From positions 7,502,001-7,566,000 of the forward strand of contig NZ_CP108101.1 of the NCBI RefSeq assembly GCF_036195325.1: 64,000 bases of DNA, given 5' to 3'. Positions 54,431-55,381 of the stretch are shown here, piece after piece. The notes under the pieces are model-generated. The model was not told where the DNA came from. It worked only from the letters and a program-made list of their open reading frames with translations, and made no database searches. Origin of the DNA: Streptomyces sp. NBC_00234 (lineage in GTDB: Bacteria > Actinomycetota > Actinomycetes > Streptomycetales > Streptomycetaceae). A program made the translations under genes and the position numbers. Numbering within the stretch: position 1 is the first letter of the stretch; each line of letters opens with the position of its first letter.

Positions 54431-55003
54431 TCACTTCTGGAGCGCGTCCAGCGTGGCGCCGAGGTCCGTGGCCGAGCGCGGCGCGCGGTTGTACGGGAGC
54501 TTCGACAGGGCCGCCGCCATGCCGCAGGTGTTGGTCACCGCGGAGAAGACGAGCCCGGATCCGATGCCCGCGGACAGCCAGCGGGCCGCGGGGAAGCGGG
54601 TGCCGGCCAGCAGCCCGGCCACCACCAGGGAACCGGCGGCGAGCCGCACCTGCCGCTCCATGGGCCAGGTGGAACGAGCGCCCTCGGGGCGGTCCAGGCC
54701 GTGTCCGTCGCCCTCCCAGGCGGACGTGCCGCCGAGCAGCGCGGCAGCGTCGATGTCGGCTCCCGAGAGGATCTCGCAGGCCCGCGTGGAACGGACGCCG
54801 GAGGCGCAGACCACGAGCAGGGCGCCCCGCGCGGCGGCGGCCTTGAGGGCGGGGACGGCCTCGGGGAGACGGTCCAGCGGGATGTTCAGCGCTCCGGGGA
54901 CATGTCCGGAGGCGTACTCGCCGGGAGCCCGCACGTCGATGACGGTGAACTCCTCCAGACGGGCTGCGGCCTGCGCGGGGGAGAGGGAAGCGGGGCTGGT
55001 CAC
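54431..55003 (-). CDS. Rhodanese with C-terminal DUF2892 membrane helices
   Basis: A 190-residue sulfurtransferase. The rhodanese domain (about 1-110) has [20 protein letters not shown] and the active-site loop CASGVRS with the persulfide-forming Cys near 71. The C-terminal part (about 118-185) has one or two membrane helices ([30 protein letters not shown]), the DUF2892/YgaP-type anchor. GTG 55003 is used. It is divergent from the CstR-like regulator with a palindrome in between and probably detoxifies persulfides. Confidence 0.9.
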
Positions 55004-55072
55004 GATCTGAGATTCCTTTCGGTCACCGGGCCGGACGGGAGACTCGTTCTCTCCTGCCCCGGACAGGCTAGA

Positions 55073-55088
55073 ATACCCTCTGGGGTAT
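55073..55088. promoter_or_regulatory. CsoR/CstR-type operator ATACCC-TCTG-GGGTAT
   Basis: A perfect 6-bp inverted repeat with a 4-bp centre lies just upstream of the GTG of the CsoR-family gene, overlapping a possible -10 (TAGAAT at 55069). It has the G-tract/C-tract form of CsoR-family operators, and lies between divergent regulator and rhodanese genes. Confidence 0.75.
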
Positions 55089-55102
55089 CCGGAGGAGGAT
55101 GT

Positions 55103-55381
55103 GTGGAACTCGACATGGCGGCCGACGAGCTGAGATCGGTCCTCAATCGCCTGCGTCGCGCCCAGGGGCAGCTCAACGCGGTCATCAGGATGATCGAAGA
55201 GGGACGGGACTGCGAGGACGTCATCACGCAGATGGCCGCGGTCTCGCGCGCCCTCGACCGTGCCGGCTTCGCGATCATCGCGACGGGCCTGCAGCACTGC
55301 ATGGCGGACGGGGCGGCCGAACCCGCCGACCGCGACCGGATGCGCGCCCGCCTGGAGAAGCTCTTCCTCTCCCTGGCCTGA
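55103..55381 (+). CDS. CsoR-family regulator, CstR-like persulfide sensor
   Basis: A 92-residue all-helical repressor of the CsoR/RcnR family. It has [19 protein letters not shown]. Cys37 and Cys66 are 29 residues apart as in CsoR and CstR; but the copper-ligand His that CsoR has four residues before the second Cys is Gly62 here. That two-Cys pattern matches CstR-type persulfide sensors. GTG 55103 follows GGAGGAGG. It sits opposite a rhodanese gene with an operator between. I infer that it represses both genes until per- or polysulfides cross-link its cysteines. Confidence 0.85.

Follow-up and report, generated by a model that had tools for sequence, protein, structure and literature searches.

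A reduced CstR-rhodanese locus in Streptomyces as a probable part of a split sulfane-sulfur regulon

Introduction

The closest described system is the pdo-tauE-csoR-rhod circuit of Streptomyces coelicolor, whose members are ScPDO (SCO0618), SctauE (SCO0619), ScCsoR (SCO0620) and ScRhod (SCO0621) (Lu 2020, PMC7533328). According to the accessible text of that paper, ScCsoR carries Cys37 and Cys66 and binds both the pdo promoter, where the 16-bp motif ATACCn6GGTAT occurs twice, and the csoR-rhod intergenic DNA, where this motif is likewise present. HSnH releases the protein from DNA but not its C37S, C66S or double mutant, and mass spectrometry found Cys37-SSH and, as the authors state it, no Cys-Cys bridge. 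The same text proposes a loop of repression and release for ScCsoR and reports an effect of sulfane sulfur on antibiotic production. Of the 1977 Streptomyces genomes it surveys, 1248 have PDO homologues, and in 773 of these a CsoR-like gene lies no more than three ORFs away. A second point of reference is the copper CsoR of Streptomyces lividans, whose sites, as far as the available account goes, place TAC and GTA 9 bp apart, for example in ATACCCCTGGTGGGTAT at csoR (Tan 2013, PMC3902906).

Here we describe a CsoR-family repressor gene and a divergent rhodanese gene in a 64,000-nucleotide stretch of a Streptomyces genome (the window; G+C 70%). Our reading, to which we assign a probability of roughly 85%, is that the window CstR is a persulfide-responsive repressor and that the gene pair is the surviving half of a pdo-tauE-csoR-rhod circuit, forming one regulon with a second circuit in the same genome. 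The finding is real and well supported, and what it adds is a known system in a reduced and split arrangement.

Results

The repressor belongs to the CstR type

The repressor gene (55103-55381, forward strand) encodes 92 amino acids from a GTG start and matches the CsoR/RcnR family PF02583 (E 2.3e-24), scoring 86 bits against a Pfam cut-off of 22.8. No NCBIfam model scored above its cut-off for this protein, the top one being the copper repressor RicR with 47 bits against 175. Numbered from the GTG, the translation has Cys37, Gly62, His65 and Cys66, and in an alignment with solved structures Gly62 stands opposite the histidine of CsoR 4m1p and the asparagine of 7mq1, which we take to be a CstR structure. 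The original prediction had named both cysteines and a glycine in place of the copper-binding histidine of CsoR, and this is indeed how the residues read.

The same residues recur throughout the homologous loci, which come from a similarity search with the window repressor. We kept 80 out of 475 relatives, all Streptomyces records, one of them titled only 'Actinobacteria bacterium', and with the window and a second copy from its own genome these make up 82 loci. Cys37 and Cys66 are present in 82/82, while position 62 is Gly in 81 and Ser in one; across the genus, the repressor is found at E 1e-25 or better in 151 of 246 genomes. Two conserved cysteines without a copper-ligand histidine, together with sulfur genes nearby or linked by operator (the divergent rhodanese, and a like operator at pdo in the own genome), place the protein in the CstR subfamily, and with Gly62 at the histidine position it does not have the Cys-His-Cys Cu(I) ligand set of copper CsoRs. 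Its effector and binding specificity are what we infer from these features of the sequence.

Two conserved cysteines would also suit a general thiol-redox switch that works through a disulfide and is no dedicated persulfide sensor, as proposed for TTHA1953 of Thermus. In the accessible account of that protein (PMC10318464), DNA binding is weaker in disulfide-linked dimers formed by Cu(II) or H2O2, and NaHS is apparently without effect. The Streptomyces precedent points the other way, however, given the release of ScCsoR by HSnH and its Cys37-SSH (PMC7533328), and a full-length persulfide dioxygenase gene lies at 54 of the 82 homologous loci. We thus regard a general redox switch as improbable and retain persulfide sensing. 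A Cys37-Cys66 cross-link, which the original prediction had envisaged, has been reported for the CstR of Staphylococcus aureus, but for ScCsoR only Cys37-SSH is reported, with no such bond, and on this point the prediction needs amending.

One operator and a membrane-type rhodanese

Between the two genes lies the predicted exact operator, ATACCC-TCTG-GGGTAT (TAC-X8-GTA; ATACCCTCTGGGGTAT), at 55073-55088. It starts 30 bp and ends 14 bp before the cstR start codon, and it answers to the ATACCn6GGTAT found between csoR and rhod in S. coelicolor. The pattern ATACCCN{0,8}GGGTAT matches the window only at this place and had no match in 100 shuffles. Genome-wide, exact ATACCCN4GGGTAT occurs three times in 8.27 Mb, each time at CstR or pdo genes, where base composition alone predicts about 0.16 occurrences. 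With the pattern reversed there is no match even if one mismatch is allowed, and on these counts a chance origin of the operator was rejected. Two matches with one mismatch, at 2.92 Mb and 8.26 Mb, have no recognisable sulfur gene in the ORF lists. The operator sits at the same place in 10/10 orthologous loci, where it reads ATACCCCTTGGGGTAT; the window copy differs at two of its central bases, which could alter its affinity. A candidate cstR promoter is suggested by TAGAAT (55069-55074, forward strand), a -10-like hexamer that overlaps the left end of the operator and is kept as TAGAATACCC in 10 of 11 aligned loci, and GGAGGAGG (55091-55098, forward strand) is the likely ribosome-binding site of cstR.

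The divergent gene (54431-55003, reverse strand; 190 amino acids, GTG start) bears out the expectation of a rhodanese with YgaP-type helices. In a Pfam query that began one codon early, it matches the rhodanese domain PF00581 (E 2.1e-12) and the YgaP-like transmembrane domain PF11127 (YgaP-like_TM, E 4.2e-9; 54503-54661, reverse strand), the combination that defines the YgaP type. The active-site loop CASGVR (54791-54808, reverse strand) is found in 11/11 orthologues, and Cys66 of the rhodanese is presumably the catalytic residue. At the membrane, the protein probably hands sulfane sulfur over to a small thiol.

The tauE and pdo genes are missing beside the pair

The window has no tauE or pdo match at E 1e-3. 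Downstream of the cstR stop, a junction of 55 bp (55382-55436) leads to a PIG-L/LmbE-type deacetylase gene (55437-56168, forward strand; PF02585), whereas the closest locus, L021 of Streptomyces sp. TSRI0281 (CstR 97% identical), carries tauE and pdo in this position, in a segment of about 2.35 kb. The gene order in L021 is ABC ATPase, hydrolase, rhod, cstR, tauE, pdo, PIG-L, XRE regulator and quinone reductase, and PIG-L follows pdo or a pdo remnant in L021, L022, L024 and L027. The PIG-L/LmbE family includes mycothiol enzymes, and a thiol link of the deacetylase beside this persulfide locus is possible.

The ten closest of the 80 fetched loci (L021-L030, 87-97% identity) share their genomic location with the window pair. 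All ten have the upstream alpha/beta hydrolase gene and nine of them the neighbouring ABC ATPase. On the downstream side, L021-L024, L026 (fragments) and L027 have PIG-L, and L021, L026, L027, L028 and L030 have the quinone reductase; L025 and L029 show neither within the retrieved locus DNA, and the acyl-CoA dehydrogenase flank was left out of the comparison. Among these eleven loci tauE-pdo is intact in three (L021, L024, L029). Broken remnants occur at the same site in L027, where pdo is truncated, and in L022 and L025, where only fragments of both genes are left; L028 keeps tauE with pdo gone, and neither gene is detected in the window, L023, L026 or L030. In a quick tree the eleven loci fall on one side of a branch with SH-aLRT 99, and the second copy of the own genome lies elsewhere. 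The tree served only for this group of eleven rows, eight without and three with an intact local pdo. Its change counts were left unused because the labels were set by hand, with L094 (where the locus ends) and L096 (no pdo match) kept in the PDO group, and because L053 and L087 hold a partial pdo and L042, L051 and L078 entered with a non-adjacent rhodanese.

The pair is thus probably a remnant of the four-gene pdo-tauE-csoR-rhod circuit, and loss of tauE-pdo rather than gain is suggested by the relatives, since the window itself keeps no fragment of either gene. The original prediction had spoken of a compact unit. The adjacency and the shared operator stand, but the compactness is probably secondary, given that L021 has tauE-pdo at this site and the full circuit exists elsewhere; the synteny with L021 and the remnants in other relatives make it less likely that the unit was compact from the start.

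A second circuit and distant pdo genes

The 8.27-Mb contig holds three CsoR-family genes, namely the window copy and copies at 239.5 kb and 4.40 Mb. The CstR at 239.5 kb is 79% identical to that of the window and belongs to a full circuit (L010) of rhodanese, operator, divergent cstR, tauE (PF01925) and pdo (PF00753 and PF00581), with an exact operator at cstR and one exact and one one-mismatch operator before pdo. Here pdo and tauE do stand beside the csoR-rhod pair, unlike in the window, and this second CstR may do most of the regulation in the genome. The gene at 4.40 Mb encodes a histidine-bearing, copper-type CsoR and adjoins a gene for what looks like a Pit transporter.

Of the eleven genomes compared (the own genome and the ten closest), eight lack an intact local pdo, and all eight have a PDO-type gene elsewhere, in each case with a TACCC-N4-GGGTA site before this gene or before its leading rhodanese gene. 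In the own genome it is part of L010, and in G248 it has its own cstR (L157). G250 has the strict core site only, with no exact ATACCN6GGTAT (L154), and in G255 one TGA was counted, at the very end of the match (L153). G253 combines L155 with a distant PDO type in L152, where a CstR of its own, 64% identical, lies nearby. In G247 (L151), G251 (L150) and G252 (L149) the gene encodes a PDO-like protein about 36-38% identical to the circuit PDO. The three genomes with a local pdo have no second pdo with an N4 site (E 1e-40); G254 has a 48% PDO homologue without such a site (L158). With only eleven related genomes, this pairing of local pdo absence with a distant, N4-bearing PDO is suggestive only. 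Five of the genomes (G247, G250, G251, G252, G255) have exactly two PF02583 genes, one of copper and one of window type, which makes the window-type repressor the only evident candidate reader of the distant operators, and in these five it would control the distant pdo in trans.

Some side observations concern how pdo genes are gained and lost. In L149-L152, separate rhodanese genes and CstR-type N4 operators accompany the distant PDO-like protein (about 36-38% identical), which is possibly a replacement of the usual PDO. Short pdo fragments (L156:4652-5032, from G251 C14 and still adjoining N4 operators, and L157:3565-3957) suggest that the genus gains and loses copies of pdo. Close to the distant PDO locus, two ORFs at L152:709-1946 resemble the transposase pair of an insertion sequence, by which that locus could possibly have spread.

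The second full circuit, the missing tauE and pdo and an operator two bases off its orthologues might be taken to mean that the window pair is a decaying leftover whose function has passed to the other copy. What speaks against decay is the state of the two genes themselves. Both are open in 11/11 orthologous loci, the operator is kept in place, and between the window and its ten orthologues the Nei-Gojobori dN/dS is 0.04-0.14 for cstR and 0.14-0.18 for rhod, so that both look constrained. The presence of cstR is no evidence by itself, because the loci were found through cstR and species that lost it would escape. The position of the window-type gene as the sole non-copper family member in five relatives without an intact local pdo also argues against a functionless leftover, and we consider one rather unlikely, slightly more so than the redox switch. 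A constrained pair, still part of a sulfane-sulfur regulon, remains our preferred reading.

A one-base difference in spacer separates sulfur from copper sites

The sulfur sites have 8 bp between TAC and GTA, one fewer than the copper sites of S. lividans. In the own genome, ATACCCN{1,9}GGGTAT has nine matches, three with a 4-bp spacer (N4), all at sulfur genes, and six with a 5-bp spacer (N5), with no site of any other spacer. The N5 sites (C1:463539, 2188034, 2857214, 4397091, 4552360 and 6295632; loci L159-L164) precede or flank the copper csoR, two GMTCASCA-type (CopA-like) ATPases, a histidine-rich membrane protein, a secreted protein and an MFS transporter, as named from their translations; these six sites are a likely copper regulon, perhaps with new members. 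Hand counts over the eight of eleven genomes with all matches listed gave 28 N4 and 47 N5 sites and no others, in agreement with the automatic totals; G253 has, among the matches listed, at least one N1 and one N3 site. In these eight genomes, 26 of the 28 N4 sites are at a cstR, rhod or pdo gene or a remnant of one, two (L165, L166) are at no recognisable sulfur gene, and every copper csoR promoter (8/8) carries an N5 site.

The same contrast is seen across promoters, for which the search covered 200 bp of upstream DNA at cstR and pdo, and 260 bp of upstream DNA with a further 60 bp at copper csoR. Strict TACCC-N4-GGGTA is present in 73 of 82 cstR promoters, with N5 in one, and in 53 of 54 promoters of full-length pdo genes, with N5 in none; nine cstR promoters and one pdo promoter are without a strict N4 site. 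In the promoters of the best 30 of 66 copper csoR matches, N5 occurs in 26, N4 in none, and no site in four. A Fisher test of cstR against copper csoR promoters gives P 4e-23, a value that overstates the evidence because the species are related. Among the 82 loci, L098 (cstR at 6001) has the only Ser62 and the only 5-bp spacer at its own cstR promoter; the sites before its pdo keep 4 bp. No earlier statement of the N4/N5 contrast was found in the open-access texts consulted, where a full-text search led only to Tan 2013, and priority is not claimed.

We lean, by a narrow margin over doubt, towards a broader proposal: that one base pair of spacer (TACCC-N4-GGGTA against TACCC-N5-GGGTA) separates two paralogous Streptomyces repressors, for persulfide and for copper, whose half-sites are almost the same, and that cstR-rhod is a stand-alone hub acting in trans on a scattered regulon, whose pdo targets have been moved, replaced by a distant PDO type or duplicated with the N4 operator. 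That the window repressor is instead a true, copper-sensing CsoR which runs the rhodanese within copper tolerance is very improbable and was rejected, for although it shares the CsoR fold family, has RicR as its top NCBIfam model (far under the cut-off) and an operator with copper-like half-sites, the copper-binding histidine is replaced in all 82 loci but kept in 30/30 copper CsoRs (the best 30 of 66 matches), its own genome has a distinct, histidine-bearing CsoR with an operator of its own, and the window spacer is the 4 bp of sulfur promoters, not the 5 bp of copper promoters.

Discussion

Taken as a persulfide-responsive repressor, the window CstR would work as follows. The reduced protein would bind the single ATACCC-N4-GGGTAT site, covering the start region of cstR and the divergent rhodanese promoter, and from this one site would block polymerase at both genes. 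Sulfane sulfur would convert Cys37 to a persulfide, Cys66 would be needed for release, and CstR would leave the DNA. The membrane-tethered rhodanese would then be made and pass sulfane sulfur on, and new repressor would be made as well, so that once sulfane sulfur drops, fresh reduced protein would shut the promoter again. With tauE and pdo presumably lost from the window site, the pair and the full second circuit would form one sulfane-sulfur regulon with the same operator type, in which each CstR may also act on the operators of the other.

In this arrangement, it is the spacing of the operators and the scatter of the targets that merit further work. The switch lends itself to asking, in a natural setting, how two DNA-binding paralogues are kept apart within a cell, and if the spacer (4 or 5 bp) alone sorted persulfide from copper responses, both regulons would be predictable from sequence in an antibiotic-producing genus. 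Moreover, a conserved regulator-rhodanese pair beside which pdo is repeatedly absent or broken is a tractable case of a regulon that breaks up while its operators persist.

Comparison with known systems

Compared with YgaP-type membrane rhodaneses, to which the window protein is similar by domain order (a rhodanese domain, then PF11127), the window gene sits under a CstR-type operator. The copper CsoR of S. lividans shares the family and the half-sites TACCC/GGGTA with the window system but differs in its copper effector and in its 5-bp operator spacer (TAC-X9-GTA), as far as described (PMC3902906). The CstR proteins of the cst operons in S. aureus and Enterococcus faecalis are likewise described as two-cysteine persulfide sensors of the CsoR family that control rhodanese-type sulfurtransferases; there, Cys-Cys sulfide bridges are reported, whereas ScCsoR reportedly has none.

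The likeness is greatest to S. coelicolor, with Cys37 and Cys66, ATACCn6GGTAT between csoR and the rhodanese gene, and the divergent layout in common, and residue numbering, operator and gene order together suggest orthology with SCO0620. Autoregulation and rhodanese control were studied there for ScCsoR, according to the available text, and the window pair has the same genes and operator. A CstR-like persulfide switch with a rhodanese, as originally predicted, is the best reading and fits the numbering and operator of ScCsoR, but as a type of unit it had already been described in ScCsoR/ScRhod, and the window switch is to this extent largely known. Where the two differ is in arrangement: in the present genome, pdo and tauE lie away from the window pair, elsewhere and together with a second cstR and rhod.
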